Source: Spirochaeta thermophila DSM 6192 (GTDB lineage: Bacteria; Spirochaetota; Spirochaetia; Winmispirales; Winmispiraceae). From it: a stretch of 64,000 bases of DNA. The notes beneath the pieces were generated by a model. That model worked only from the letters and a program-made list of their open reading frames with translations, did not search any database and was not told the origin of the DNA. Below, piece after piece: positions 2,259-19,125 of this stretch. Made by a program: the position numbers and the translations under genes. The stretch covers positions 186,001 to 250,000 of the forward strand of contig NC_014484.1 in NCBI RefSeq assembly GCF_000147075.1, given 5' to 3'. The stretch's first letter is position 1, and every line of letters begins with the position of its first letter.

Positions 2259-2529
2259 TGGATCGTGAGGGGCCTATGAAAATGTCATAGGGTTTTATGC
2301 GTTTTGCATGATCCTCGCACATCGAATGGGACCCTTGAAGCAGGATGTGCAAATCTGGTGTTAAATCAAACGAATAGAGATCCAGTTCCTTGAGAATGCT
2401 CTGAATAGGGGGGGTAAGATGGCACGCTTATTGAATTTATATGTTCAGGAAAACTACCGTGCGAGAGGAGTAGACATGCCTCGGTGTGAAGACCGAAGAA
2501 ATATATCGCTTTCCCGGAAGGAGGGGGTT
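2259..2529. other. Divergent intergenic region between rex and the giant lipoprotein
   Basis: About 270 bases (some 300 counting the rex promoter) lie between the two divergent genes. I see no RNA gene or convincing reading frame. For the plus-strand gene the best promoter guess is TTGAGA (2390-2395) and TAAGAT (2415-2420), but the 19-bp spacer is long. An ATG at 2419 is in frame with the lipoprotein, but it would bury the signal peptide about 37 residues in. Confidence 0.4.
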
Positions 2530-5500
2530 ATGAAACACATATCTTTTGTAGGTATTGTGCTTGGAGCGCTCGCCGTCCTTGTGGTGAGCCTCACAGGGTG
2601 TGACGTGGGACTCGGTGAGCAGGTGGACGTGGCCCGTCCCAGAGTGGCCCTCACCAGCCACGAGTCGGGCGAGTACGTGAAAGGGGTGGTCATCCTCTCC
2701 GGTACGGCTACAGACGATAGCGGCGTTTCCCAAGTGCAGATATCGTTTGATAGAGGGAAGACATTTGAGCCCGTCGATTCGTTGAAGAAGAAAGGCGACG
2801 GCTATGAATGGACGTATGTGTGGGATACACAGCAGATCCCCGATGGGCGCTACTATGTAGTACTTAAAGTATTCGACGAGGCTGGCCATTCCTACGAGAC
2901 CGAAGAGCTGGTATTCATCGTGGACAACCATGCTCCGGTCCTCCTCATCTCTTCCCCTGATAAGGCGGCTGATCCGGTTCAGAATCCTTTCAACCAGGAA
3001 GTGACGCTCAGTATCCATGCCGCCGACTATTCTCCTCTCGTGGCCTTCACAGTGGATGTGTGGAGGAGTTCTGATGGTACCTCATGGGAGCACCTTTCTG
3101 ATTATCCAAAGAACTTCTCTCAGACAGCCTCTCCTTTTACCTATACCTTTATTCCAGAGTATCCTTCGGGAGAGGCACAGCAGTATTTCCGGTTTGTATT
3201 CACTGCCGAGGACAAGGCAGGAAACACGAACACCTTTTTCTTCCACTCAGATGACGTATTCAGTGTGGCGGGGAAGCACCTCACAGTAGAGCAGGTGAAG
3301 ACGATCATAGAGGGTGGAACCGTCGAGGGAGTAACCAATGAGCAGTTGCTGCAGAAGGCGATCCAAACGTTTGTGGTGTACTTCGATGAGGATGGCGACA
3401 GGCCTCTTGTGAGGTTTCTTGAGACTGGATCAGAGCTCTATCAGTCAGGAAAGCTTACGATAGAGGTAGAAGATGATGATGCCATCGATCCGGCGTCACT
3501 CACACTTCGATGGTATAGCTCTACCGATCCTGATAATTTCCCTTCGACCGCAGACCTCACCCTCTCAGGATGGGACGTGATTTCCCAAGACCCACATGTG
3601 ACCGTCCTCAAGGAAACCCCTACCTTGTACCAATTTGCATATAGCCTTTCTGATTTTGAGGTAGACAGGTTTTACAAAGCAGAGATCGAAGTGCACGATG
3701 CAGGTGGTGTCTCTCCCTCTCAGACACCTACGAAAGTCTTTAAGGTGATCGCCTCTGACAGCCAGCCGCCTGAGATTACCCAAATCAGTATCGATGGACT
3801 TAGTAACATTCCAGACTCAGGGATGTACTACATTACGGAAGGTGACTATACCATCTCGTTTGCCGCGAGCGATAATGCAGAGCTCTCCTCAGTGTGGATA
3901 AAGGAGAACTCTCAAGAGATCTACAGCCAAACGGTGAACCAGAGCACCTTTAATGCGTCTCTGGACCTCACAGGGAAGCCTGATGGGACCTACACCTATG
4001 AAATAGGAGCACAGGATGCCAGTGGAATCGTCACCACGAAGGTATGCCAAGTCGTGGTGGATACCACCCCTCCTGCCCTCGAATTCACCACTGTTGCTCC
4101 TGTCTCCAATCCTGTGCCTGCCTTTAACGGGGTGGTAGAGCTGTCGGCCCTTATTTCGGATGGCATCGCTGTAGAATTCCTCTACTACTACATTGGACCA
4201 GATAACACACCCCCTGGTTACACAGTAGAACGAGATATCTTTGGAAGAGCTACTGGCGTGACAGGACTTCCTCCTGCGTGGACACCATATACCGACAACA
4301 AGAATGCCTGGAATCTCGAGTACGATACCACTCAGCTTTCAGATGGGACGAACTATGTAGGACTCTTAGCAGTCGATAGGAACGGGAATGTAGCTGTAGA
4401 CTTCTACACTATGAACGTAGACCAGAGTACCGATGAGCCGGTGATCACGATCTCAAGCCCCAGTGACGGTGGGTTTGCCGGCGCAGGACAGGTACTGAGC
4501 GGCACAGTGGCGGACGACGACAAGGTGGATGTGACGAGCATCCAGGTGCGGTACTCCACCGATGGAGGGACTACGTGGAGTTCATGGGTCTCGCCCGATT
4601 CGGTGACCGGTACTGGAAAAAATGTGAGCTTCACCTACATCCTTCCCGACCTCGGTGCCGATGGGTTGAAGCAGATCGAGGTGAGGGGGAGCGACGACCC
4701 TTCCGCCAAGCTTGGGAGCAACCCCACTGCAGTGACGGCCACTGAAGGACCTCTCAGCTTTACCTATGATACCACCAGCCCCGTGGTGAGTGTGAGCGAA
4801 CCTACGGAAGGCGACACATTTGACAGTACTTTTGTTGCCTCAGGTTCGGTGACAGAAGCGCACCTGCAGATCGTTCGGGTGAAGATGGATACCGACTCTT
4901 GGCAGGAGCTCACGCCCACAGGGAGTGCGCCTGACTACTCATGGACGTACGATCTAGGGGCGAGCTTTGATGGCCTTTCTGAGGGAGCTCACTCCTTCAC
5001 GGTAGAGGCGGTGGATGTGGTGGGTCAGACTTCCGCGGTCCAGGTCACGTTTTACAAGGATACCACAGGTCCGGCTGTCATCTTCACGAGCATCCAGGAG
5101 GGAGGGAATACTATCCTCACCTCCATGAACCCGGTAGTCGCAGGGAGCATCTCTGACGATTACTCGAACATCGCTTCTCAGATAGAGTACCGTATCGACG
5201 GAGCCGATCCTGATCCTTGGCAGCAGGCCGGTGTGACCGGGTCGGGTAAGACGGTCACCTTCAGCATCGATGTGAGCAGCCTCTCCGATGGTCAGCACGA
5301 TATCGATATAAGGGCAACTGATGTCCTCGGTAACCAGACCGAGGTATTGGATGTACAGTTCAGGATAGATCGTGCCGCTCCCTCCCTCTCCATTACAGCT
5401 CCTCCAGAGGGAACGGTCTACGGCACGGTGAGCTCTGGTGAGGTCTTCACCCTCACCGGCACGGCCTCCGACGCCCTCCTCGATGCCGTGAGCGCCGATC

Positions 5501-8500
5501 TCGAGGGCACACCTCTGAGCAACGGTGGTTCCTCCACGGTCTGGTCGTTCGATGTCGACAAGACCCTCTTTGATGCTCTCTCGGAAGGTCCTCACACCAT
5601 CCAGGTGACGGCCACGGATCTCGCCGGGAGGAGTACGCTCCTCACTTGGCAGTTCGTGAAAGACGCTCAGGCGCCTGTCATCTCGTTCAGCAACATCAAC
5701 GAGGATGGGAGCACGGTGCTTCAGGACGCCTCGCCTGTGATAAACGGTGCTGTCTCTGACACGTATGGGGTGGGCTCCATCGAGACGAGGATAGAACGGT
5801 ACGACTACTCCGCCTCGTCCTGGAGTCTCGTGGAGGACTGGACGAGTGCAGGTGATCCGGCCGGGGCCACGGTGTATGTGTGGAGCAAGGACCTCGGCCC
5901 CTCCGGGCTTAACCTTGGTGCAGGGCGGTATCGCATCTCGGTGAGGGCCACCGACATGGCCCAGAATACCGCGAACCAGGCCGAAAAGTCCGATATAGAG
6001 TTCGCTATAGACCAGCAGGCTCCTCAGCTCAGCATAGATGCGCTTGACATGTATCAGAACGGCGACTTCCTCCTCACGGGGACGGCTTCCGACGATGGGG
6101 CCGTGGCGAGTGTGAAGATAAAAGTGGACGATACCGACTTCTCCACCGGTGCTGTGGATGCCACCTATGACAACGGCACGGGTACGTGGCAGGTTACGGT
6201 CCCCACTACCGGCCTCTCCTCCGGGGATCACACCGTGTACGTGCAGGTGGAGGACAGTGCAGGCAAGACAGTGATGCTCAACAAGCCCTTTGTGTTCGAC
6301 AGCGATCCGCCTGCGGTCACCATTCTTGAGCCTGCCTCTCAGACCAGGGTGAACGGCGAGGTGACGATACGGGGCACGGCCTCGGACAACGTGGCGGTCT
6401 CCACGGTGGAGTACCGATTCGGCAAGAACGCCACCACCTGGCAGACGAGCGGGCTCTCGGGGCTCTACAGCTGGAGCTACACCTTCGCTCAGATCGAGTC
6501 CTATGCCAATGATACCTATGCTACAGAGATCGATCCTGCCACAGGGAATCCCCAGAGCGGTACCAATGTGTGGGCCCTCCCCTTCCAGGTGAGGGTCACC
6601 GACGTGGCGGGGAATGCCTATGAGGAGCTCTCCTACGAGCTCTGGATCGATCCTGACATGGACACCCCTCTGGTCTACATCACGAGCCACAGCAACAACC
6701 AGACCGTGGGCGGCACGGTGCGGCTTGCAGGGTATGCTACCGACGACGACTGGGTCTACGATGTGGAGTATCGTGTGGATCCCACGGGCACGGGCTCTGG
6801 CTTTGGCTCATGGACCAGTGCGAACAGGATAGGGGCGGGCACCCAGGTGAACTGGTATGTGAACCTCAATGAGGACGGGTCCCTCAATCCTCCTCCGGGC
6901 GAGATAAACGAGGTCCTGGTAGAGGTGAGGGCTGTAGACAGCAAAGACAACGGGCTTAGTCGCGGTATAGAAGGAGATGTGGCGAGCATTCGCCTCAGAT
7001 TCGACAGCAACGTGCCGGTGATTGAGGATGTGGAGGTGCTCAAGGCCGATAGCACGAGGGTGCCGTACACCGCAGGCGAGCGTGTGGCGGGGACCTTCAC
7101 CGTGGAGGCGGTGATGAGGGACGAGGGCGGTCTCTCCAAGATCGAGTGGAGGGGTGAGGGGACTACGCTCTTCACCGATGTGCTCTCGGATCCCACGGTG
7201 GTGACCACCCCGCCCGAGGTGGGCGCCTCCGAGATACGGGCCGGGGTGAAGTACCTCATCACCTCGGTGGGTACCACTGATTTCACGGCCATAGGGGCGA
7301 GCTCCAACGAGGTGGGGATCACCTTCACCGCCACAGGATCTGGAACCGGTACCGGCACGGCCTACATGGCCGTCACCCCGCCCCTCGTGCCTGCAACCGA
7401 GCTGGTGGCCGGTGAAGCCTACGCCATCTTCGATCCCGGCACCACCGACTGGACCGCAGCGGGTGCGCCCGACAACAGCATAGGCACACCGTTCGTTGCA
7501 ACCGGTGCGGGTACAGGCGACGGCATCGCCTTCCGGATTGTGGCAGCTACGGAGCTCGCGGTAGGCGAGATCTACCGGATCTATGAGCCCGGTGCCACCG
7601 ACTGGACGGCAGTAGGGGCACCCGACAACAACGCAGGCACCACCTTTACGGCCACAGGTGCTGGTAGTGGTGATGGCTTTGCCATAGAGCCGGAGAAGCT
7701 TAGCTTCGTGTATCGCTTCCACCTCCAGCTTGACTCTACCACCCTCAATAGCGGGGCCTACGACGCTACGAGCGGGTTCTACCAGCTCGACCTCAGGGTG
7801 ACCGACAACGCCTCGCCCACGCCCTACATGAGCCAGCAGAGCCTCAACCTCCAGATCGACAACTACTATCCTGCGGGTGAGTACCTGGCCTCTCCCAATG
7901 CTGCCACCGCCGAGTACTACATCCAGGGGAGGGCCTGGGACAGCGGTACCGGGTCGGGACCCATCCAAGGGATTGGGGCAGTGGTCCTCTACTTCGAACG
8001 AGACGGCTCCTTCATCGACCTCGCAGGGGGGGCTGGTTCCTGGACAACCCGCTACGTGAAGGATGAGTCCGCAGGAGGGACGTACCAGGACGTGACCTTC
8101 CCGGCCGATACGGCGAGCGGTATCTGGGTGGATACGAACGAGATCGGTGTGGACATAGACGGTGACGGCTACGTGGAAGGATTCTCCACGGATGGCATCT
8201 ACAAGAACTGGTATGCGATCTACGATACCACGGTGCTCGCTGATGGGCCTGTCACCCTCCACTACGTGGTCATCGATGGGGCAGGCAACGCCACGCACTA
8301 CACCCAGGACCTCTACATCCAGAACAACATCCCGCAGATAGACGGTGTAGTGATAGGGACCGACCTCGACAACAGTGGCACCATCGATCCCAGCGAGACC
8401 AAGCTCTACAACACCAACTACGAGACCACCGGGTTCACGGTGCGCAACAACTACCTCCAGTTCCAGATCAACGCCTCCTCCGGTAACGGGCAGCTCCACT

Positions 8501-11037
8501 ACCGCGTGGGCTACGTCACCGGGACGACGAGCGTGCCGGCCTCGAGCCTCGTGAGGGGTGGTGTGTACACCATAGAGACCGTAGGGGATACCGACTGGAC
8601 CAAGCTCGGGGCCCCTGCGAACCAGGCGGGTATCACCTTTGTGGCTACAGGTCCGGGCACAGGCTCAGGTACGGCCATCTCCTACACCACCACCGAGCTC
8701 AACGCCACCCTCACCAGCAACGTGGTGGACGTCACTGACTTCACGAGCATCCCGGACTCGAGCGCTCCCAACGACCGGCAGTTCATCATCAAGGTGTACG
8801 ACTCTACCGTACCGGCAGGTGGAGAGGACGAGCAGCTCGCAAGCGCCGTGCTCGTAGGCCTCACGGTGGACAACACCGATGAAGCGGCCCCGGAGATCGC
8901 GGTGGCAGATATGGGTCAGACCTACACCATCGCCGAGGCCTATGCCGACAGGGTGCTCCAGGCTGTGGACGCCTACGAAGACAACATCGTCACCTCGGCC
9001 GACGGTACGCGCCACGGCTACGTGCAGTACGCCGCTGCGAGCAGCGATACCGATGCGGATGTGAGCGGTAAGGTGATCTTCATGGGCAAGGCCTACGACA
9101 ACCAGAACATGAACCGCATCCGGGTCCAGATCACAGGATATGATGGCGGAAACGGTGTGGGACAACCCTTTGACATCGCAGTAGCCTCCGGTGGCACCCT
9201 CGTCTCGGCCAACGGTGCGACCATTGCCGACGTGGAAGCGGGGACCGCTGCCTGGGCCTTTGAGATTGCCCCGGGGAGCGAGTCCCTCACCGTGGACAAC
9301 GGACACGTGATCAACTGGAGGTTCGCATGGAACACCGCGACCGTGCAGAACGTGGCACAGGATGACGTGACGCTCACCTTCAACGTAGAGGATAGCGCGG
9401 GGAATACAGGCACGGCTGTGAGCTACACGGTGGATGTACGACCCTACATCACCGATGTGCAGCGCGATCCCGCCAACTTCAACACCTATCGATCAAGGTA
9501 CGGGTGGTACTCCCTGCGGAGAGGCGAGACCGTGGTGGTGAGAGGATTCAACCTCTACAACTCCACTGCCGATACCGTGAGCTTTGGCGGTGCGAGCGTG
9601 AACCTCCCCTCGAGTGCCACCACCACCTCCTTCTCGGTGACCGTGCCCACGAGCGCCGTCTCCGGTGCCATCACCCTTACGGTGAACGGGCTTGAGGCCC
9701 TCAACAACATCAACGACAACACCGAGCCCTACAACCAGGAGTACGATCCTGCGGACCCGCGCTCGGCCCTTTGGACCGACGACCGCTATGCTCACATCTG
9801 GCAGTCCAACGATACCACGGGGACTTTCGATAGTGGTTACTTCCCGGAGAGCGATACCCCGGTGCATCCTGCCATGACCATAGATCCTTCAACAGGAACT
9901 CTGTATGCAAGTTGGTCTCACTATGCCTCTTGCCGGGTCTACCGAGCGGCGATAGATGATGGAGCGCGAACCACCGTATTCCGTATCTACGACCCTTCTG
10001 AGCACACCGACATCGACTACGGTGTACGACCGGTCATCGCCTACAATGCGAACTACTATGACGGCGCCTCTACCTACGGTGGACTCTACGTCTGGGATCC
10101 TCAGGCTCCGTATCAGTTCACTTCTGGAGGAGTAAATGATTACTTCTATGAAGGAGAGAACATGGGGCACGACCACTACCTCATGCAGTTCATCAATGAG
10201 CGAGTGGTGACGGTTGGGGATAACATCCACGTCAGCTACTACGATACGGAGACCAAGGCCCTCAAGTACATGTACATCCAGAGCGGCGACACAAGCACCG
10301 CAGAGCACTCCTGGGTCAATCTCGACGGAGGATCCGATGGTGATGATACCCAAGTGGTCTCCACCGGTCGGGTCTCTGCTGCAGGTGAGTTCAGCGCCAT
10401 CGACGTGACGCCGGCAGGGTATCCGGTGATCGCCTACTACGACATATCCCGCCAGACCGTGCGGATCGCCAGGGCCACGAGCACCACGCCCACCACTGCG
10501 GCCGACTGGGTGCTCCAGGACGTCATCGGCACCTCCGATCCCAACTACCGCTATTCCGGGAAGTACATCTCCATGCGGATCGACAGTCAGGGCTATGTGC
10601 ACCTCGCCTTCTTCAGGGTGAGCACAGGCGACCTCATCTACATGAAGTCCACCAACAACCCGCAGGACGGGACCACGGCCTACACCTTCGGTCCTACCGT
10701 GGTGGTCGACAGCGAGGGCTCGGTGGGGATCTGGGCCGACATCTCCCTCACGGACGACGACAGGCCGGTGATCACCTACCTCGACTTCTCCCTGGTGAAC
10801 ACCTTCGATGGGCTCAAGATGGCCTTCTACGATCCTGCACTCGAACGAGAGAGCGGGGATGTGGCAGGTGAGCCGGATACCTCTGACGGGTGGGAGACCA
10901 TGTACGCAGCCCTCGGGTACGACATCGACAACAAGCGGCTGAGCATGGAGTACGACACGAACGACCACAACGCCTGGTGGGCTGCGATAGGGTATGCCTC
11001 GAGTGACTACTACCGGGTGGCCTACTACGTAAAGTAA
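2530..11037 (+). CDS. Giant Ig-like repeat lipoprotein with TIG and propeller-like C-terminus
   Basis: A 2835-residue predicted surface lipoprotein. ATG 2530 follows AAGGAGGGGG, and the signal peptide ends in the lipobox SLTGC (Cys about 24). Residues about 35-1560 are repeated bacterial Ig-like units ending in phrases such as DTTPPALEF or DTTSPVVSV, with GTASDD and DGTYTYEI motifs between. Three 43-residue TTDWTAxGAP repeats follow (about 1572-1718) and a fourth lies near 2008-2051. A TIG-like domain (ETVVVRGFNLYN) is at about 2307-2388. The last 420 residues alternate strand-like segments (PVIAYYDIS, IDSQGYVHLAFFR) resembling BNR/sialidase-type propeller repeats. The N-terminus (CDVGLGEQVDVARP) resembles the lipoproteins at 33393 and 37925. 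Adhesion or a structural surface role is inferred; no catalytic motif was seen. Confidence 0.88.
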   Translation: MKHISFVGIVLGALAVLVVSLTGCDVGLGEQVDVARPRVALTSHESGEYVKGVVILSGTATDDSGVSQVQISFDRGKTFEPVDSLKKKGDGYEWTYVWDTQQIPDGRYYVVLKVFDEAGHSYETEELVFIVDNHAPVLLISSPDKAADPVQNPFNQEVTLSIHAADYSPLVAFTVDVWRSSDGTSWEHLSDYPKNFSQTASPFTYTFIPEYPSGEAQQYFRFVFTAEDKAGNTNTFFFHSDDVFSVAGKHLTVEQVKTIIEGGTVEGVTNEQLLQKAIQTFVVYFDEDGDRPLVRFLETGSELYQSGKLTIEVEDDDAIDPASLTLRWYSSTDPDNFPSTADLTLSGWDVISQDPHVTVLKETPTLYQFAYSLSDFEVDRFYKAEIEVHDAGGVSPSQTPTKVFKVIASDSQPPEITQISIDGLSNIPDSGMYYITEGDYTISFAASDNAELSSVWIKENSQEIYSQTVNQSTFNASLDLTGKPDGTYTYEIGAQDASGIVTTKVCQVVVDTTPPALEFTTVAPVSNPVPAFNGVVELSALISDGIAVEFLYYYIGPDNTPPGYTVERDIFGRATGVTGLPPAWTPYTDNKNAWNLEYDTTQLSDGTNYVGLLAVDRNGNVAVDFYTMNVDQSTDEPVITISSPSDGGFAGAGQVLSGTVADDDKVDVTSIQVRYSTDGGTTWSSWVSPDSVTGTGKNVSFTYILPDLGADGLKQIEVRGSDDPSAKLGSNPTAVTATEGPLSFTYDTTSPVVSVSEPTEGDTFDSTFVASGSVTEAHLQIVRVKMDTDSWQELTPTGSAPDYSWTYDLGASFDGLSEGAHSFTVEAVDVVGQTSAVQVTFYKDTTGPAVIFTSIQEGGNTILTSMNPVVAGSISDDYSNIASQIEYRIDGADPDPWQQAGVTGSGKTVTFSIDVSSLSDGQHDIDIRATDVLGNQTEVLDVQFRIDRAAPSLSITAPPEGTVYGTVSSGEVFTLTGTASDALLDAVSADLEGTPLSNGGSSTVWSFDVDKTLFDALSEGPHTIQVTATDLAGRSTLLTWQFVKDAQAPVISFSNINEDGSTVLQDASPVINGAVSDTYGVGSIETRIERYDYSASSWSLVEDWTSAGDPAGATVYVWSKDLGPSGLNLGAGRYRISVRATDMAQNTANQAEKSDIEFAIDQQAPQLSIDALDMYQNGDFLLTGTASDDGAVASVKIKVDDTDFSTGAVDATYDNGTGTWQVTVPTTGLSSGDHTVYVQVEDSAGKTVMLNKPFVFDSDPPAVTILEPASQTRVNGEVTIRGTASDNVAVSTVEYRFGKNATTWQTSGLSGLYSWSYTFAQIESYANDTYATEIDPATGNPQSGTNVWALPFQVRVTDVAGNAYEELSYELWIDPDMDTPLVYITSHSNNQTVGGTVRLAGYATDDDWVYDVEYRVDPTGTGSGFGSWTSANRIGAGTQVNWYVNLNEDGSLNPPPGEINEVLVEVRAVDSKDNGLSRGIEGDVASIRLRFDSNVPVIEDVEVLKADSTRVPYTAGERVAGTFTVEAVMRDEGGLSKIEWRGEGTTLFTDVLSDPTVVTTPPEVGASEIRAGVKYLITSVGTTDFTAIGASSNEVGITFTATGSGTGTGTAYMAVTPPLVPATELVAGEAYAIFDPGTTDWTAAGAPDNSIGTPFVATGAGTGDGIAFRIVAATELAVGEIYRIYEPGATDWTAVGAPDNNAGTTFTATGAGSGDGFAIEPEKLSFVYRFHLQLDSTTLNSGAYDATSGFYQLDLRVTDNASPTPYMSQQSLNLQIDNYYPAGEYLASPNAATAEYYIQGRAWDSGTGSGPIQGIGAVVLYFERDGSFIDLAGGAGSWTTRYVKDESAGGTYQDVTFPADTASGIWVDTNEIGVDIDGDGYVEGFSTDGIYKNWYAIYDTTVLADGPVTLHYVVIDGAGNATHYTQDLYIQNNIPQIDGVVIGTDLDNSGTIDPSETKLYNTNYETTGFTVRNNYLQFQINASSGNGQLHYRVGYVTGTTSVPASSLVRGGVYTIETVGDTDWTKLGAPANQAGITFVATGPGTGSGTAISYTTTELNATLTSNVVDVTDFTSIPDSSAPNDRQFIIKVYDSTVPAGGEDEQLASAVLVGLTVDNTDEAAPEIAVADMGQTYTIAEAYADRVLQAVDAYEDNIVTSADGTRHGYVQYAAASSDTDADVSGKVIFMGKAYDNQNMNRIRVQITGYDGGNGVGQPFDIAVASGGTLVSANGATIADVEAGTAAWAFEIAPGSESLTVDNGHVINWRFAWNTATVQNVAQDDVTLTFNVEDSAGNTGTAVSYTVDVRPYITDVQRDPANFNTYRSRYGWYSLRRGETVVVRGFNLYNSTADTVSFGGASVNLPSSATTTSFSVTVPTSAVSGAITLTVNGLEALNNINDNTEPYNQEYDPADPRSALWTDDRYAHIWQSNDTTGTFDSGYFPESDTPVHPAMTIDPSTGTLYASWSHYASCRVYRAAIDDGARTTVFRIYDPSEHTDIDYGVRPVIAYNANYYDGASTYGGLYVWDPQAPYQFTSGGVNDYFYEGENMGHDHYLMQFINERVVTVGDNIHVSYYDTETKALKYMYIQSGDTSTAEHSWVNLDGGSDGDDTQVVSTGRVSAAGEFSAIDVTPAGYPVIAYYDISRQTVRIARATSTTPTTAADWVLQDVIGTSDPNYRYSGKYISMRIDSQGYVHLAFFRVSTGDLIYMKSTNNPQDGTTAYTFGPTVVVDSEGSVGIWADISLTDDDRPVITYLDFSLVNTFDGLKMAFYDPALERESGDVAGEPDTSDGWETMYAALGYDIDNKRLSMEYDTNDHNAWWAAIGYASSDYYRVAYYVK
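7243..7683 (+). repeat. Three tandem 43-residue TTDxTAxGA coding repeats
   Basis: The copies lie near 7243-7368, 7404-7530 and 7558-7683. Each follows the pattern Y-x-I, then G-x-TDW/FTA-x-GAP/S, then G-x-x-F-x-ATG-x-G-x-GDG. They interrupt an Ig-like unit of the giant lipoprotein. Protein similarity between copies is high while the nucleotides differ, so they are not very recent duplicates. Confidence 0.8.
8551..8683 (+). repeat. Fourth, isolated copy of the TTDxTAxGA coding repeat
   Basis: It encodes GGVYTIETVGDTDWTKLGAP, then QAGITFVATGPGTGSGTA, the same module as the array at 7243-7683 but about 900 bases downstream. It is again inserted in the middle of a strand-rich domain. Confidence 0.75.
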
Positions 11038-11122: not shown

Positions 11123-12121
11123 CTAGTGTAGTCCCTCCACCACCAGCCGGGTGGCCGCATCCCAGGCCGCCTTCGCTCGCCACGCGAGCGGGTTGGGCGC
11201 CTCCGCCCCCCTAAGAGCCGGCACGAGCCCCGTCCGCCGCGCGAGCCCCTCCTGCACCCGCCCCTCCCGCACCCATGCGAGCCCCGCCTCCACCGCCCTC
11301 CTGTTCCTCACCCCCACCGGCACCGCGCACAGCACCCTCACCGGCAGGTCGTACTCCGCCGCCTCTGACGGATCGGGGAACCGGTCGGCCTCCAGCAGCC
11401 CCACCTTCCCCGGCCCCAGCCTCACCGCCTCCGAGAGCGGCCCGTACACCCACAGCCCCTCCCCTTCGAAGAACCGCGCCCACACATCCTCCCACACCGC
11501 CGTCTCCGACCCCCTCGCCCACACCCCCTCATCCAGCCACACCCTCACCCCCTCCTCCGCCCCCACGCCGAACCGCGCCGCCTGCACCCCTGCCCCCCAC
11601 CGCCCCCGCGGCGTCCCCCCCGCCACCAGCACCCGGCCCCGGCCAGAGGCAAGCTCCCCGCGCGTCAGCCGCTCCTGCCGCACCCGCCTGAAGACCATCC
11701 ACACATCCACCACCAGCGGCACGCTCCCCTCCGGCACTTTCCCCTCCCCCAGCAGACGCCCCCACCCTTCGGGGAACAGGCGGCTTGTCCCCTCGAGGTC
11801 GAATCCGTGCGCCTCTCCCTCCGGGATCTCCCATGCGATGAGGATCCCCGGCGCCCTGCACGCCTCGTAGCTTCCCGGGAACCGCTCCACCCTCCTCCAC
11901 GGCGCCCCCTCCTCTTCCTCGAGGAAGCCTTGCCACAGCTCCTCGGTCTCCGGGGTCACGTACCACCGTGGGGCATAGTAGCCCCCGTACCACCACATCC
12001 CCAGGACCACCAGCACCACGACCAGCCCTCCCGCCACCCCCAGCCACCACGGTACTCCTCTTCTCGTGTGAGAATCCTTACCCCGTGGACCCTTTCTCCT
12101 CCGCGAACCCCGCTTGTTCAT
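11123..12121 (-). CDS. Membrane-anchored protein resembling family-1 solute-binding proteins
   Basis: A 332-residue protein. A basic cytoplasmic tail (residues 1-22) is followed by one membrane segment (about 25-45, WWLGVAGGLVVVLVVLGMWW) and a soluble extracytoplasmic domain. Phrases typical of extracellular solute-binding proteins appear in order: VPLVVDVWMVFRR, a W-rich centre (VWEDVWARFFEGEG) and a C-terminal VQEGLARRTGLVPAL. No permease or ATPase genes are adjacent, so a transport role is unproven. The ATG at 12121 follows AAGGAGG. The coding strand is strikingly G-rich, which makes several opposite-strand frames appear open. It could equally be an orphan sensor or binding protein. Confidence 0.7.
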   Translation of the reverse strand: MNKRGSRRRKGPRGKDSHTRRGVPWWLGVAGGLVVVLVVLGMWWYGGYYAPRWYVTPETEELWQGFLEEEEGAPWRRVERFPGSYEACRAPGILIAWEIPEGEAHGFDLEGTSRLFPEGWGRLLGEGKVPEGSVPLVVDVWMVFRRVRQERLTRGELASGRGRVLVAGGTPRGRWGAGVQAARFGVGAEEGVRVWLDEGVWARGSETAVWEDVWARFFEGEGLWVYGPLSEAVRLGPGKVGLLEADRFPDPSEAAEYDLPVRVLCAVPVGVRNRRAVEAGLAWVREGRVQEGLARRTGLVPALRGAEAPNPLAWRAKAAWDAATRLVVEGLH

Positions 12122-12248: not shown

Positions 12249-15200
12249 CTAGAACATCACCACATGCGTCCCGAAGGTGAGCTTGGGCACGATCTTCGGA
12301 TCCACGTCCGAGGGGATGAACCAGAGCTCCGGCTCCACGTAGAGGCTGTAGGTGTGGAAGGCCGGGAAGCGCTTCACCTCCACGATCGGGAACTCCAGCT
12401 GGGCGAGGATGGCGCTCAAGACCACGGAGGAGATCGTCCTGGTCTCCTGGGCCTCCTCCACCTCGATGGGATCGTAGAGGAGGATATAGCTGAAGTCCGC
12501 GCCAAGGGCGAGCTTCAACGAGAGCCAGTCCCAGTCGGGCCCCAGGAACGACTCGAACGGCACGTAGAGGAGGCTCGCGAGGAGCTTGCCGCTTATGAAC
12601 TGACCCGAGAGGCGCGCAGGCTTGCCGTCGGCGGTGGTCCGCGGGCCAAGCCCATAGCTCACCTGGAGCTTCACATTGTTGTCGAAGAAGGTGAGGCCGA
12701 GGCCCGCCTTCCAGTAGGTCATGCCGAGGAAGTGTGCATCGAGGTACATACCCTGGATGAACTCGGGTATCTCGTACCCGGCCTTATCACCGGCTCTGAG
12801 GCTTATCTGCACGTCCTCGAGCCCGAAGTTGTCGTCCGCGACACCAAACGCCACGAGCTTCTCGTTGACCCTGTCACCCTCGAGCGGGGCTATCACCTTC
12901 ACCTCGGGCGGGATCTTATCCACCACGAAGAGGGTGCGCAGGACAGCAGTCTCGCCGTTTCGGAAGGAGGCCTGCACCAGGACAGGGAGCGGACCATTGG
13001 GGAGGAAGCCCGTCTCCACCCGGTACTTCCACTGCGATCTCGCCGGGATCTCTTGGAAGGTCCGCCCGTTGTCGAGACTCACCTGTATGCGCACCACTTC
13101 GAACTCCCGTATCTTTTTCCTGTAGTCCGGATCTTCGGGATCGAGCGTGGTGAGGTAGGCGGCGGTCCCCCTGATCCAGGGCCTGTTGGCGAGCATATCG
13201 CCTATCATGTGGCTCTCGAGGGTGAGGTAGGGTCCTATCTTCTGGTAGATGAAGCTCCGCGGCTCGCTCTCCACCCGTGCCCCATCGTGGGAGAGCACGG
13301 CCTTCAGGGTGACCTCGCCGTCGGGGAGCTTGCCGGGATCGAGCACTGCCCTGAAGTATCCGCGGGGGTTCACGTCGGCCGAGGTGAGGAATCCGTCCTC
13401 GAGGAAGATCTGCACCTTCTCCACCGGCGAGGGAGCCGTCGCCACACCTTCGACCACCACGGGGCCGTGGACCACCTCACCCTCGGAGGGGAAGAGGATG
13501 CGGACCGAGGCGCCCTCGGTCCGTGCCACCACGAACAGGTTCCTGTCCACGAGGGCCACGTTGCCTGCCCCATCCCGGGCCTCGAGCCTCAGGTTGTACC
13601 ATCCGGGCGAGAGCTCACCCAACGGTATGCGGGTGGTGAGCACCCTCTCGAGCGGGAGCGTCACCTCCACCGGGTCCAGCTGGTTGTTGATGGGCTCGAG
13701 GATCCCCTTGAAGGAGGTGAGCTGTATGTTGTCGGAGACGCGGCCTGAGAGCCGGACCTCTCCTGAGACGGTGACCCCTTCTTCCGGGGTGGTGAGGGTG
13801 ATCTCGGGAGGCGTATTGTCCACGTTCACCAGCGCGGAGTAGGAGGCCTCTATCCCGTAGCCGTCGCGCACCACGAACTGCACCGCGTATGTACCGTCCG
13901 TGAGGATGGTGGTATCGAGCGGATAGGTCCACTCCGTGCCGTCTATGGTGAGGTGCGCGAAGTGGAAGGAGTTTCCGTTGTCGAAGGAGACCCGTACCGA
14001 GTCGATTCCGTTCGCATCGCTCGCCGTTCCCTTGAGGATCACCGTTCCCTTTACGGTCTCCTCGACCGTGGGTGAGACCATGGCCCCCTCCGGCTCGCTG
14101 AGACTCACCCTGAGGGTCTTCGAGGCGATCTCCCCCTGCAGCCCGAAGAGATCCACGGCGTAGATCTCCACGGTGTGTTCATTGTCGGAGAGGGAGGAGA
14201 GGGGAATGGTGAAGGAGAAGGTGTGCTGCGCAGGCACCTCCTGCCAGGTGCCGTCGTCGAGCTTCCACACGATCTTGGAGATGCCGTCGTCGTCGAAGGC
14301 CATGCCCGCAATCGTCACGTCCTTGGTGACCACGAAGTCGTCGGGCGGTGTCTGGATCTCCACGCGGGGTTTGTCGAGCGAAAGGTCCACGGAGGGTGAG
14401 AGGAGGGTCTCGGAGGTGTTGCCTGCCGCATCTTCCGCAATCAGCTTCATGGTCTTCCCCTCCTCGGCGAGGCGGGAGAAATCGACCGTGAACGAGAAGA
14501 TCCCGTCTTCCGGAGAGAGGGGGGTGAAGGAGGGTTCCGGGGTACTGGCGGCTGCTTCCTCGGACTCCCCTGGTGAGCCAGAGGGTTCAGGAGGGCCCTG
14601 TTCCAGCAGGTAGCCGAAACGGATCACCGGGGCCTCGGAGGCGATGGATCCTGCCACCAGGATGGTGCCGTTCACCGTCTTCCCCACCTCTGGGGTGGTG
14701 AAGGCGAGGGTAGGCGGGGTGGCATCGTAGAAGAGATGGATGCGTTGATACCTCACATGGCCTGCGCCGTCCTCTGCCTTGAGTTCCAGGAGGTGTGGGC
14801 CGGGGGTGAGCTGGGACACGGCCATCGTGGTGGAGAAGCGGAGCTCTGAGACGGATATGCTCACCCAGGGGGCGCCGTCGAGCCTGTAGGCGAGCCCTGG
14901 GAGGCCGGCGTCGTCCTGCACCTCCCCCTCGATGGTGAGCGACGTGTTGAGGTACGCGCCATCTGAGGGGGTCTGAAGCGTGAGCACAGGGGCCTCGAGA
15001 TCGATCTCGGCGGTGAAGCGAGATGAGCGGTAGGTGCGGCCGTCGGTCGAGGTCACCACCACCTGCACCCCCGAGGCCTTCCCCGCCTTCTGGGGCGTGA
15101 TGATGAGGTGGTTGCCCTCGTGTCTCACGGTGAGAAGGTCGCCGGCCCCTTCGAGGACCACCTCTCGCACCCCTTCCCCGGAGAAGAAGCCTATGAGTGG

Positions 15201-17114
15201 GGTGCGATCCGTCCAGATCATGGTCCCGTTGGAGAGGCGGTGGTCGAGGAGGAACACCTCATCGGGCTTGGTGGGCGGGGGGAGGGTCTCGCCTTCCTTC
15301 TTCGGCGGAGGTGCCTGGTAGGAGATCACCTGGGGAAAGAGATACCTCTTCCCGTCGCGCATGGTGAGCGCAAAGACCGCGGCGAGGGCCCCGTGGCCTG
15401 CCTTGGGATCGAGGGAGGCCTCGAAGACATAGCCGCCTTCTTCGGCAGGACTGATCTTGAGACTCGTCTTTCTCACCGTGTTCGGGAACTGCGGGAGGTT
15501 CTCGGGATCGAGAGGCATGAGTGCCCAGAGGTCCTCCCCTCCCACGTAGAGCACACCGGAAGAGGGCTTCTCCTGGCTCACAATCCTTCCCCGGAGCACG
15601 GCCTTGCGCGAGGCTTCGTAGGTGAGGCCGTTCTTCCACGTGAGGGATTCCCCGGTGTCGGTATAGACCAGCTCCTCGACCGTGAGGACCGGCGCGGTGG
15701 GGGCGATCTGGAACGAGACCTTCACCGGAGGGCTCTCCAGGCCATAGACGTCCACCCCTATGAGGGTGAGGGTGTGTCGGCCCGGAGGAAGTCCCTCGAG
15801 GGGCACGTAGAACCCCATGGAGGCGGGGATCTCCACTCCCTGTTTGGGATCGTCTCCCATGCCGAGCACCTTTACCTTCTCAGGCGGGTTGGGTCCCACG
15901 ATACGGCCCACGAGCACCTCATCCGGGGTGAGCACCGGTTCTCCCTCTTCCAGGGCGGGGAAGAGGAGTTCTACCTGAGGTTGGAAGGCCTTTCTGTCGT
16001 TTTTGAGCCTGATCTTCTGGGAGGAGCGATTGCCGCTCGCATCCTCGGCGTGCACGGTGAGTTCGAGGGTTCCGTCCTTTTCCTGCGAGGTGTCGAAGGT
16101 GAGGTGCCAGTACGGATTGCCTGGTATGAGCTCAAGGTCGTGCTCTTCGCCCTTGAAGGTGTACCAGAGCCGTTTCACCCCTATGGCATCCCTCACCGTG
16201 CCGGTGATGCCCACCTTCCCGAAGACTACGGCCTCGTCTTCAGGGCTGAGCACGTTGAGGGCCGCAGGTTCGTTGTCCACAAAGAGGAGGAAGGGGCTGC
16301 GGACCTCTGTGCCGGTGCCGTCGGTGGCGGTGAACCACCACACATAGGGACCGTCGGGGAAGGATCTAGTATCGACGGGGAGGGAGAATCGATAGACTCC
16401 TTCACCCTTGTCGTACTTAACACCAAGGGTAAGGGTCTTCTCCGGGATCTGTTCCTCCTCTCCCTTTTTGTTTACCGTGGTATAGGTGGGTATGGTCACG
16501 CTGAGGCCTCTTACGCCATTTTCATCCCTCACCACCCCCTCGAGCACGATCTTTCCCGACACAAGGACCCCGCTCTGATGAGAGGTCACCTCGATCACTG
16601 GTGGGGTGGTGTCGAGTGCGAAGGTGGAGGTGATCTCCGGTCCCTCGGTGCCGTTCACGTCGACCGCCTTCACCGAGATGGTGTGGGTTCCCTCGGTGAG
16701 TCGGGAGGCGGGTACTGCGACCCGCCAGTACTCGGTTCCCTCGGCCGTCTGGTAGGAGCCGTCGTCGAGCTTCACGAGGACCCGTGCCACGCCGTCGTCG
16801 TCGACCGCCACGCCCACGATGTTGAAGGCATTACGCACCACCTCGTGCTCCTGTGGGGAGACGATACGGACGACCGGGAGATCGGAGGCAGGATCCACCT
16901 TGATGTTGAACGGTCCGGCGATGGACTCGTTTCCTGCAAAATCGATGGCCTTTATGATCACGTTGTGGGTACCGGGTTTTTCGTCCTGGATGTTGAACTC
17001 TTTTTTCCAGTCCTCTTCCCCCTCTGCTTCCTGCCACTCAGTGGTACCACCGGCATACAGCCAGGTGGAGATGAGGAGAAAGAGGAAGAACATCGTGAGG
17101 CTGCGGAGCTTCAT
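12249..17114 (-). CDS. Secreted Ig-like repeat array with putative C-terminal outer-membrane barrel
   Basis: A 1621-residue exported protein. ATG 17114 follows AAGGAGG. The N-terminus MKLRSLTMFFLFLLISTWLY, then AGGT, is a signal peptide without a lipobox Cys. Residues about 50-1440 are tandem Ig-like units (PVVRIVSP, VVRNAFNIVGVAVDDDGV, DTTPPVIEVTS, SGKIVLEGVVRDENGV and many variants). The last unit breaks off after DNFGLEDVQISLRAG. The final ~175 residues then change to alternating amphipathic strands rich in aromatics (TYWKAGLGLTFFDNNVKLQV, LKLALGADFSYILLY, SLYVEPELWFIP) and end THVVMF. A terminal Phe after strand-like sequence is the usual outer-membrane insertion signal. I infer an outer-membrane-anchored Ig stalk; whether the barrel exports the array is unknown. 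Confidence 0.82.
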   Translation of the reverse strand: MKLRSLTMFFLFLLISTWLYAGGTTEWQEAEGEEDWKKEFNIQDEKPGTHNVIIKAIDFAGNESIAGPFNIKVDPASDLPVVRIVSPQEHEVVRNAFNIVGVAVDDDGVARVLVKLDDGSYQTAEGTEYWRVAVPASRLTEGTHTISVKAVDVNGTEGPEITSTFALDTTPPVIEVTSHQSGVLVSGKIVLEGVVRDENGVRGLSVTIPTYTTVNKKGEEEQIPEKTLTLGVKYDKGEGVYRFSLPVDTRSFPDGPYVWWFTATDGTGTEVRSPFLLFVDNEPAALNVLSPEDEAVVFGKVGITGTVRDAIGVKRLWYTFKGEEHDLELIPGNPYWHLTFDTSQEKDGTLELTVHAEDASGNRSSQKIRLKNDRKAFQPQVELLFPALEEGEPVLTPDEVLVGRIVGPNPPEKVKVLGMGDDPKQGVEIPASMGFYVPLEGLPPGRHTLTLIGVDVYGLESPPVKVSFQIAPTAPVLTVEELVYTDTGESLTWKNGLTYEASRKAVLRGRIVSQEKPSSGVLYVGGEDLWALMPLDPENLPQFPNTVRKTSLKISPAEEGGYVFEASLDPKAGHGALAAVFALTMRDGKRYLFPQVISYQAPPPKKEGETLPPPTKPDEVFLLDHRLSNGTMIWTDRTPLIGFFSGEGVREVVLEGAGDLLTVRHEGNHLIITPQKAGKASGVQVVVTSTDGRTYRSSRFTAEIDLEAPVLTLQTPSDGAYLNTSLTIEGEVQDDAGLPGLAYRLDGAPWVSISVSELRFSTTMAVSQLTPGPHLLELKAEDGAGHVRYQRIHLFYDATPPTLAFTTPEVGKTVNGTILVAGSIASEAPVIRFGYLLEQGPPEPSGSPGESEEAAASTPEPSFTPLSPEDGIFSFTVDFSRLAEEGKTMKLIAEDAAGNTSETLLSPSVDLSLDKPRVEIQTPPDDFVVTKDVTIAGMAFDDDGISKIVWKLDDGTWQEVPAQHTFSFTIPLSSLSDNEHTVEIYAVDLFGLQGEIASKTLRVSLSEPEGAMVSPTVEETVKGTVILKGTASDANGIDSVRVSFDNGNSFHFAHLTIDGTEWTYPLDTTILTDGTYAVQFVVRDGYGIEASYSALVNVDNTPPEITLTTPEEGVTVSGEVRLSGRVSDNIQLTSFKGILEPINNQLDPVEVTLPLERVLTTRIPLGELSPGWYNLRLEARDGAGNVALVDRNLFVVARTEGASVRILFPSEGEVVHGPVVVEGVATAPSPVEKVQIFLEDGFLTSADVNPRGYFRAVLDPGKLPDGEVTLKAVLSHDGARVESEPRSFIYQKIGPYLTLESHMIGDMLANRPWIRGTAAYLTTLDPEDPDYRKKIREFEVVRIQVSLDNGRTFQEIPARSQWKYRVETGFLPNGPLPVLVQASFRNGETAVLRTLFVVDKIPPEVKVIAPLEGDRVNEKLVAFGVADDNFGLEDVQISLRAGDKAGYEIPEFIQGMYLDAHFLGMTYWKAGLGLTFFDNNVKLQVSYGLGPRTTADGKPARLSGQFISGKLLASLLYVPFESFLGPDWDWLSLKLALGADFSYILLYDPIEVEEAQETRTISSVVLSAILAQLEFPIVEVKRFPAFHTYSLYVEPELWFIPSDVDPKIVPKLTFGTHVVMF

Positions 17115-17328: not shown

Positions 17329-18312
17329 TTACTCCTGCGGCCTGATGTGCGGGATCCTGAGGGGCCTTCCCGCATAGATGAGGTCCGGATTGGCGATGCG
17401 GTTCTCCTCGGCGATGATGGGATAGAGCCATGGGTTGTTGTAGAACGAGTCGGCAAGGTCCCAGAGGGTATCCCCCCACGTGGGGGTGTAGATGATGGTG
17501 AACTCGGAGGGTGCAGGTCGTGCTGCCTCGGGTGCCTGGGTGGGGGCGGGGGTCGAAGTTACGGCGGGGGTGGGCCGGGGTGCGGTGGAGACCTGGGGAG
17601 CCGGCACCTCTCCGAGGACACGGGGGAGGAACAGGTAGGAGAGTACTCCCCCTACGAGCACGCCCAGGATGAAGCCGAGGATGAAGGGGACCCACATGGA
17701 GGGCCTTCTCTCGACGGGAAGGGCGGCCGACCGTTCTTCTTCCTCCCGCTCGAATCCCGACTGCAGCAGGTTCTGTTCCTCCTCGCTCATGAGGCTGGAG
17801 GAGGCACGTCGCTCTTCTTCGAACGAAAACCCTTCCTCTTCCTCGCCCTCCTCGTATGAGAGGGAAGCCTCCTCATCGAACGGGGTGCCGAAGTCCTCGT
17901 CGTAGGAACGTTCCGGGAGGGATGCCTCCTCCTCGTATTCCCCTTCTTCGTGCATTCGGGTGAGCATGGAGAAGTCTGTGTCGGGAGAGGGCTCCTCCAT
18001 GGTGAGCTCGAGGTGCCGAGTCTCCCCCGAGGTCCTCTCCCGGGCGGTGGCGGAGAGGTGCTCGTGTTCGTCCATCTCCAGGACGAGTTCCACCTCGGGC
18101 TTCTCGCCGTTGTAGTCGGGGAGGTCGACGGTGAGGGTCCCGAGGTATTCCCCTCCTTCCTCGTCGAGGGTGCGATAGAGGTCTATGTGGACCGCTCGTT
18201 GATGGGTGTGGGCAGGCTCAAGCACCACGCGCTTCCGCGAAGGGGTCCCCTCTTCCAGGACGGGAAAGAGGCTGTTGTCGGCGAGCCTTATGGCGATACG
18301 GGGTCGTGCCAT
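17329..18312 (-). CDS. Hsp70-substrate-domain-like / membrane / LysM protein
   Basis: A 327-residue protein of three parts. Residues 1-105 (LFPVLEEGTPSRKRVV, HQRAVHIDLYR, LGTLTVDLPD, VELVLEMDEHEHLSATARER) follow the order of the DnaK beta-sandwich substrate-binding domain, without an ATPase domain. A strongly acidic linker (about 110-195) leads to one membrane segment (about 205-229, VPFILGFILGVLVGGVLSYL), then a Pro/Ala/Thr-rich spacer. A C-terminal LysM domain (about 275-322, GDTLWDLADSFYNNPWLYP, IYAGRPLRIP) should bind peptidoglycan. The topology would place the Hsp70-like part in the cytoplasm and LysM in the periplasm. ATG 18312 follows AGAGAGGA. Function is unknown to me. Confidence 0.85.
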   Translation of the reverse strand: MARPRIAIRLADNSLFPVLEEGTPSRKRVVLEPAHTHQRAVHIDLYRTLDEEGGEYLGTLTVDLPDYNGEKPEVELVLEMDEHEHLSATARERTSGETRHLELTMEEPSPDTDFSMLTRMHEEGEYEEEASLPERSYDEDFGTPFDEEASLSYEEGEEEEGFSFEEERRASSSLMSEEEQNLLQSGFEREEEERSAALPVERRPSMWVPFILGFILGVLVGGVLSYLFLPRVLGEVPAPQVSTAPRPTPAVTSTPAPTQAPEAARPAPSEFTIIYTPTWGDTLWDLADSFYNNPWLYPIIAEENRIANPDLIYAGRPLRIPHIRPQE

Positions 18313-18414: not shown

Positions 18415-19121
18415 ATGGTCCGCGTGATACTGGTTGAGCCTGAAGGAGCGGAGAACGTGGGGATGGTGGCCCGTGCCATGGCGAACATGGGACACGAAAG
18501 ACTCGTCCTGGTGCGGCCTGCGTGTGACCACCTCTCTCCACCGGCCCGGCGCTATGCGGTGCACGCCGAATCCATCCTGGAAGGGGCGAGGGTGTGTGAG
18601 ACCCTGGCGGAAGCCCTGGATGGTGTGGATCTCAGGGTGGCGGTCACCCGCCGGCACGGCCAGTACCGGATGCCCGATCTCTACCTCCCGGAGTTCCCCG
18701 CCTTTCTCGCGGAGTTCACGGGGAGGGACGTGGCGCTCGTCTTCGGAAGGGAACGGACAGGCCTCACCTCAGAAGAAGTGCAGGCGTGCGACCTCATCCT
18801 CACCATTCCCTCGTCGGGGGCGTGTCCTTCGCTCAATCTCGCCCAGGCGGTGATGGTGGTGCTCTACGAGCTCATGCGGGCGAGTTTCCTCTCGCTCGCG
18901 CCCAGGCGGGAGGAGGATCTGCGGCCCTATCTCGACGAGGCGGTTGTCAGGGCCAGGGAGGTGCTCGAAAAACTGGGCTACTACCGGAACATCCCCGAGG
19001 AAAAGGTGGCCTTCGCGGTGAGGAAGGTGATCGCCCGCATGGTGAGGGACAGGGAGACCGCCGTGAGGGTCTCCCGCTTCTTCTCGCACGTGGCGGCCAG
19101 GCTCGACCTCCACGGGAAGGA

Positions 19122-19125
<4 letters not shown>
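18415..19125 (+). CDS. trmJ: tRNA 2'-O-methyltransferase, TrmJ/SPOUT family
   Basis: A 236-residue SPOUT methylase expected to methylate the ribose at position 32 of tRNAs. The motifs are in order: ILVEPEGAENVGMVARAMAN (motif 1), ALVFGRERTGLTSEEV (motif 2) and LTIPSSGACPSLNLAQAVMV (motif 3, knotted SAM site), then a helical C-terminal extension typical of TrmJ. ATG 18415 is preceded by GGTGAGATAGGG, a modest ribosome site. The gene ends TAG at 19123-19125 inside a CTAG shared with the convergent aspS stop. Confidence 0.88.

Follow-up and report, generated by a model that had tools for sequence, protein, structure and literature searches.

A membrane-anchored LysM protein of Spirochaeta thermophila carries an Hsp70 substrate-binding domain without ATPase or lid and belongs to a spirochaete family associated in gene order with MltS-type lytic transglycosylases

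The described systems closest to the gene considered here are the Hsp70 chaperones, the LysM proteins and a lytic transglycosylase of spirochaetes. In the substrate-binding domain (SBD) of Hsp70, residue P419 is a contact for the J-domain (PMC8215388) and its mutation impairs allostery (PMC4664246). The protein BB0259 of Borrelia burgdorferi is required for periplasmic flagella (PMC8517470); it releases anhydro-peptidoglycan and, because of its role in turning over the wall, now bears the name MltS (PMC12279116). In published work bb0258 is the gene adjoining bb0259. The gene that we compare with these systems lies in a stretch of 64,000 nucleotides from Spirochaeta thermophila DSM 6192 (contig NC_014484.1, positions 186,001 to 250,000), which we call the window and whose first letter is position 1 of all coordinates given here. 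Its open reading frame (17329-18312) is read from the minus strand, a point on which the original prediction was silent; on the plus strand this frame contains a stop. The gene, its parts and its two neighbors are the following.

17329..18312, minus strand: whole gene, 327 aa and a stop, encoding an SBD-beta domain, an acidic linker, a membrane helix, a Pro/Ala spacer and a LysM domain
17998..18312, minus strand: Hsp70 SBD-beta domain, residues 1-105, of eight strands (profile, AlphaFold, Foldseek)
17704..17997, minus strand: acidic, probably cytosolic linker, residues 106-203, mostly disordered, with pLDDT <50 over much of it
17617..17703, minus strand: predicted membrane helix, residues 204-232, preceded by basic residues and probably oriented N-in, C-out (AlphaFold and charge asymmetry)
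17500..17616, minus strand: Pro/Ala/Thr-rich, probably periplasmic spacer, residues 233-271 (sequence; low pLDDT)
17344..17499, minus strand: LysM domain, residues 272-323 (Pfam PF01476, AlphaFold, match to TsaP in the PDB)
18415..19125, plus strand: SpoU-family RNA methylase, divergent neighbor, which we take to be TrmJ-like (Pfam; context only)
12249..17114, minus strand: 1621 aa protein of repeated bacterial Ig domains, downstream neighbor (Pfam; context only)

Pfam, NCBIfam and phmmer did not suffice to identify the N-terminal domain, and the SBD claim is not decidable from the window sequence alone, because the N-terminus by itself matches no Pfam family and its phmmer matches to Ssb1 (E 0.028) and DnaK (E 0.5) are weak. 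The identification comes from relatives and from structure. Sixty related genomes were searched with the window protein and 46 of them matched at E<=0.01, some through the LysM only; the N-terminal domains of the window protein and 38 relatives make up an alignment of 39 sequences (A1). The profile of this alignment finds Hsp70s in the PDB, 3h0x being the best match (E 1.1e-15), and among the best 60 of its 72 matches all are named Hsp70 apart from two, which are entered as an "import motor subunit" and an "uncharacterized protein". Unaided, 31 of the 39 members of A1 match the Pfam HSP70 family, the best of them at 9.4e-16. AlphaFold builds eight strands from residues 1-105 of the window protein, with ten-residue pLDDT means of 81-97, and in a Foldseek search with this model the top matches are Hsp70 substrate domains (best E 3.3e-7). 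The best 50 rows of that search consist of Hsp70 substrate domains or of Hsp70 chains inside larger assemblies, the identity of the chain being deduced for four entries titled by their complex (6u42, 8glv, 7sqc and 7x3k). For L048, a typical relative, the modeled structure can be laid over the DnaK SBD 4r5l_A with 107 residues aligned at 1.6 A (Z 16.8). Residues 1-105 are thus firmly a true homologue of the Hsp70 SBD-beta.

The rest of the Hsp70 is missing from this protein. The ORF begins at strand 1 of the SBD, which excludes the actin-fold ATPase domain and leaves no residues ahead of that strand to hold the interdomain linker (VLLLD); neither was there any sign of the helical lid (SBD-alpha) in residues 106-203, which are acidic, lie mostly under pLDDT 50-65 and form no confident helical bundle. 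A search of the organism's own genome with PF00012 returned DnaK and one partial match elsewhere, and nothing at the window gene. A complete DnaK is thus encoded at another place in the S. thermophila genome, and DnaK is found in 25 of 26 related genomes at E<=1e-150. The loop that bears P419 is also gone, I418-P419 being deleted in all of the 60 family sequences aligned. The original prediction had proposed, for the first ~105 residues, the strand order of the DnaK beta-sandwich without an ATPase, and had named an unrelated fold for these residues as the outcome that would speak against it; what profile, AlphaFold and Foldseek returned is the SBD-beta fold, and the absence of the ATPase is borne out by where the ORF starts.

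Whether the groove of such a domain could still hold a peptide may be judged from the conservation of its residues. The family was reduced from 119 sequences to 60 non-redundant ones, and these were placed, together with 25 DnaKs of spirochaetes, on a DnaK numbering anchored at D393. The pocket residues are largely kept: Q433 in 60/60, I401 in 57/60, I438 in 53/60, V436 in 51/60 and I472 in 49/60, with F426 replaced by L in 52/60; the window copy carries the equivalents of I401, V436, I438 and Q433, all four, with V41 standing for V436 and Q38 for Q433. Nine pocket positions taken from PMC4664246 have a mean entropy of 0.71 bits, as against 1.80 over 101 columns, a difference reached in 0 of 20,000 permutations. 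Groove positions are also the more conserved within hydrophobic columns (4/20,000), for a residue set of our own that was picked after viewing the alignments. The arch of the family, with A404 in 56/60, V429 in 44/60 and T427 in 51/60, resembles the eukaryotic A404/Y429/T427 more than the M404/A429/S427 of DnaK. Pocket conservation is the single line of evidence suggesting that the domain may bind extended peptides. For the loss of coupling to an ATPase we rely solely on the deleted P419 loop, and not on the entropy of docking or allosteric positions: the seven allosteric positions of PMC4664246 show no significant excess of variability over the other columns (2,000/20,000), and a first "docking" set of 12 scorable positions, which did appear more variable (8/20,000), was set aside along with the published one.

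Beyond the N-terminal domain, the AlphaFold model of the window protein (built with 52 sequences) has a helix at 204-232 and LysM elements within 272-321, and pLDDT falls below 50 at residues 114-131, 135-151, 156-164 and 189-197. Pfam recognizes the LysM over residues 280-321 (E 1.3e-6, 28.7 bits with a cut-off of 20.9), and phmmer matches this region to TsaP in the PDB at E 5.3e-7. The three features by which we define the family, an N-terminal SBD-beta, an acidic linker and a single membrane helix, are all present in the window protein. The helix recurs in 80 of 81 family proteins (from 119, with near-duplicates removed), and the basic residues around it are more numerous on the N side in 72 of 80, on the C side in 2 and equal in 6, so that a cytosolic position of the SBD and a periplasmic one of the LysM are probable; a net acidic linker is found in 79 of the 80. 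In one relative (L041) an OmpA domain (Pfam E 1.2e-16) stands in place of the LysM. This swap hints that the C-terminus is there to anchor the protein to the wall, and it lends some help to the peptidoglycan binding that is expected of the LysM from its domain family. The original prediction had placed an acidic linker, a membrane helix and a LysM after a cytoplasmic N-terminus, and each of these elements has found support here, the cytoplasmic N-terminus by the charge rule. What has been added to it is the existence of a spirochaete family, its link to MltS and a second copy in the same genome.

A scan of genome contigs with a closer set of sequences than A1 (alignment A2) yielded 177 relatives, of which the best 80 were kept, and all of these 80 belong to records that name spirochaetes. 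Within the phylum, 113 of 294 genomes (>=90% complete) match A1 at E<=1e-17. Six of the 113 were dropped because their ORFs are of 589-662 aa, five having been opened and found to be full-length Hsp70s and the sixth (G128) being assigned by ORF length, so that at least 107 of the 294 genomes carry a family member; this is a lower bound because the copies of Borrelia-like and Treponema pallidum-sized genomes score below the threshold. These divergent members are L171 and L172, from the two Borrelia-like loci examined, and L173, from a genome of T. pallidum size. Among 35 genomes searched with a further profile (A7), three have a member (G020, G242 and G092), and in the other 32 (five each from families f8 and f45, and 22 others) matches were seen solely in ORFs of 489-688 aa, whose reading as Hsp70s is based on length except where the loci were opened. 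Some relatives in family f24 (L128-L132) join the same SBD and LysM by very long linkers, which brings the proteins to 591-869 aa. Certain divergent full-length Hsp70s of other spirochaete classes (L185, L186 and L187, of 589-609 aa) have SBDs that are nearer to the family (63-67 bits) than the SBD of the own DnaK is (52 bits); such Hsp70s are possible ancestors of the SBD family.

The gene company of the family was counted on the 80 loci just described (the best 80 of 177), and these counts are not phylogenetically independent. The LysM is present in 77 of the 77 complete proteins of this set. In 66 of the 72 loci with >=900 bp of sequence downstream, the next gene on the same strand encodes an SLT-domain lytic transglycosylase of the MltS type, and in two more of the 72 an SLT-domain gene lies further downstream. 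Upstream, a divergent gene for a membrane protein that we call TPR-Mrr is found in 55 of 73 loci, and where >=4.5 kb is available downstream, UppP occurs in 14 of 49 loci and FtsK in 31 of 49. Many individual loci show all or some of the order mnmG-rsmG-(TPR-Mrr)-SBD-Slt-UppP-FtsK, in which Pfam supplied the names of the SLT, TPR-Mrr and FtsK genes, and the UppP, MnmG and RsmG genes were assigned from their sequences. The TPR-Mrr protein, in which a hydrophobic stretch at the N-terminus is combined with an Mrr-like C-terminal domain of the restriction endonuclease fold, is itself encoded in 248 of the 294 phylum genomes at E<=1e-30 (for example at L045, 2549-3928, minus strand). In both Borrelia-like loci examined the family member stands between Slt and the TPR-Mrr gene, and in the T. 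pallidum-sized genome it stands directly before Slt. From the gene order of B. burgdorferi and the published adjacency of bb0259 and bb0258, we take the Borrelia-like locus to correspond to BB0257-BB0261, with BB0260 expected upstream of MltS. BB0260 has no occurrence in PMC8517470 and PMC12279116, nor in any relevant paper of the literature searched. Near the MltS cluster of a Borrelia-like genome there is also a short (505 aa), divergent Hsp70 that retains its ATPase (L194, 2578-4092, minus strand).

The S. thermophila genome has two family members. The second (L031, 202 aa) consists of the SBD, linker and helix, without a LysM, and lies directly before Slt and UppP. The LysM copy of the window is not beside MltS, slt, uppP or ftsK; its neighbors are the TrmJ-like and giant Ig-protein genes, and these also flank the gene in G001 and G002. 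Giant Ig-repeat proteins are encoded at 2419-11037 (plus strand) and 12249-17114 (minus strand) of the window, along with a 332-aa protein without a Pfam match at 11123-12121 (minus strand), and this set of two Ig proteins and the 332-aa protein also adjoins the gene in G002 and, within the stretch covered, in G001. The Slt-linked, LysM-less copy is present in G000, G001 and G002, and two more genomes (G267 and G029) likewise have one copy with a LysM and one without. A quick tree of 91 N-domains, not resolved overall, places the window copy with L003 (91) and L031 with L034 (97), a grouping by which the two copies would seem to be older than the split between G000 and G002. It appears that in S. 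thermophila the job has been divided, with the LysM-less copy in the MltS-UppP operon and the LysM copy elsewhere. LysM-less members also occur at the Slt locus in genomes in which no second copy was seen (e.g., L035, L036, L039 and L042). The SBD and helix are therefore the constant part of the family and the LysM is a frequent addition, and since several copies at the MltS locus have no LysM, wall binding is not needed everywhere.

The tie of MltS to flagella raises the question of whether the family serves these or the wall. FliG_C was detected in 268 of 294 genomes. Of the 26 negatives, the 20 listed are without exception members of family f8, and this family is missing from the listed positives for the SBD (at 1e-17), TPR-Mrr and Slt. 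Four genomes of f11 g12, in which flagellin is absent (0/4), nevertheless keep the SBD-LysM gene, and at the thresholds used no Slt or TPR-Mrr was found in them; in the two of their loci that were read (L038 and L040), FtsK follows the SBD-LysM gene. Neither flagella nor MltS is therefore obligatory. A purely flagellar role is weakened by these four non-flagellate genomes, and we therefore look for the function in the growth and remodeling of the wall and in division, with flagella as one user.

The domain identity is firm; the client and the function we infer. Our favored reading, a tentative one that falls just short of an even chance, is of an ATP-independent peptide clamp of the Hsp70 type fixed to the cell wall near MltS-type remodeling. 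In the cytosol, the SBD-beta would grip, with no ATP cycle, an extended stretch of one particular client that belongs to the envelope, to division or to flagellar assembly, and the helix and spacer would bring the LysM to peptidoglycan. With a clamp inside and a LysM at the wall, the protein would staple its client to a wall site, where cutting by MltS-type enzymes might be placed or limited during growth, division or the passage of periplasmic flagella. The protein may thus link some component of the cell interior to remodeling of the wall nearby, and it is a candidate for how spirochaetes aim MltS, an enzyme tied to periplasmic flagella (PMC8517470) and wall turnover (PMC12279116). Counting against this reading are the arch, which departs from that of DnaK, the loss of Q433 from the two Borrelia-like sequences, the unremarkable variability of the published allosteric positions, the place of the window copy away from MltS, the four non-flagellate genomes and the LysM-less copies at MltS loci. 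A stronger version, in which a fixed ATP-free clamp holds a division or flagellar-assembly peptide inside and peptidoglycan outside and tells MltS where to open the wall, as an ancient device still present in the Lyme (at the BB0260 position) and syphilis spirochaetes, is speculative and rather unlikely.

The strongest rival to the clamp is a role in docking without peptide binding, in which the SBD-beta would be a rigid domain for one folded partner, perhaps the TPR-Mrr protein or FtsK, and its groove would no longer take peptides. Residues conserved in the family and not in DnaK (K402 in 49/60, R423 in 46/60, D439 in 52/60, Y441 in 46/60 and Y453 in 50/60) agree with such a surface, as do the altered arch, the absence of Q433 from the two Borrelia-like sequences and the frequent divergent TPR-Mrr gene, but the pocket positions are more conserved than the rest of the domain, even among hydrophobic columns, and we regard docking as somewhat unlikely. 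A groove filled by the protein's own acidic linker, through a motif of the type Y-D-x-P-[DE]-F-[DE]-L that would act as a latch, to be released by pulling on the linker or by its modification, is considerably less probable. Matches to Y-[DE]-x-P-[DE]-F-[DE]-[LIF] do follow the domain in 44 of 80 relatives (e.g., L015, L022 and L018), as compared with a mean of 0.97 in shuffled linkers, for a motif chosen after viewing the sequences. Against this, the YDIPDFEL-like motif is not clearly kept in the window protein or in the Borrelia-like and T. pallidum-sized copies, AlphaFold has low confidence past residue 110 of a typical relative (ten-residue means of 55-63), and Hsp70 grooves disfavor acidic segments. 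A pairing of the motif with the TPR-Mrr protein was also considered and rejected, several genomes with TPR-Mrr having members that lack the motif. Slightly less probable again is a holdase at the membrane that would hand general unfolded clients to DnaK: Hsp70 ancestry and the near-universal DnaK of the related genomes would suit it, but the P419 loop is lost throughout, there is no lid, and the gene company is one of cell-wall and not of heat-shock genes. A decayed, functionless DnaK fragment in a chance fusion, which would suit a window copy that has little identity to DnaK and a Pfam-negative N-terminus, can be dismissed in view of an architecture and gene order shared across deep and numerous spirochaete lineages, a conserved pocket and a copy in a congener that is 93% identical and has no stops.

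Our literature search found no description of an Hsp70 SBD lacking ATPase and lid and anchored through the membrane to the wall, and we know of no natural family that uses an Hsp70 substrate domain in this manner. The family shares with DnaK and other Hsp70s the eight-strand fold and the pocket positions of SBD-beta, and differs from them in having no ATPase, interdomain linker, helical lid or I418-P419 and in being membrane-anchored. TsaP, SafA and Kbp have a LysM in common with the window protein, in which, unlike these, the LysM is C-terminal on a single-span membrane protein with a cytosolic (as predicted) Hsp70 SBD. MltS/BB0259 (LTase-Bb), the membrane lytic transglycosylase of spirochaetes, is an enzyme, whereas the SBD protein, its genomic partner, has no catalytic domain.
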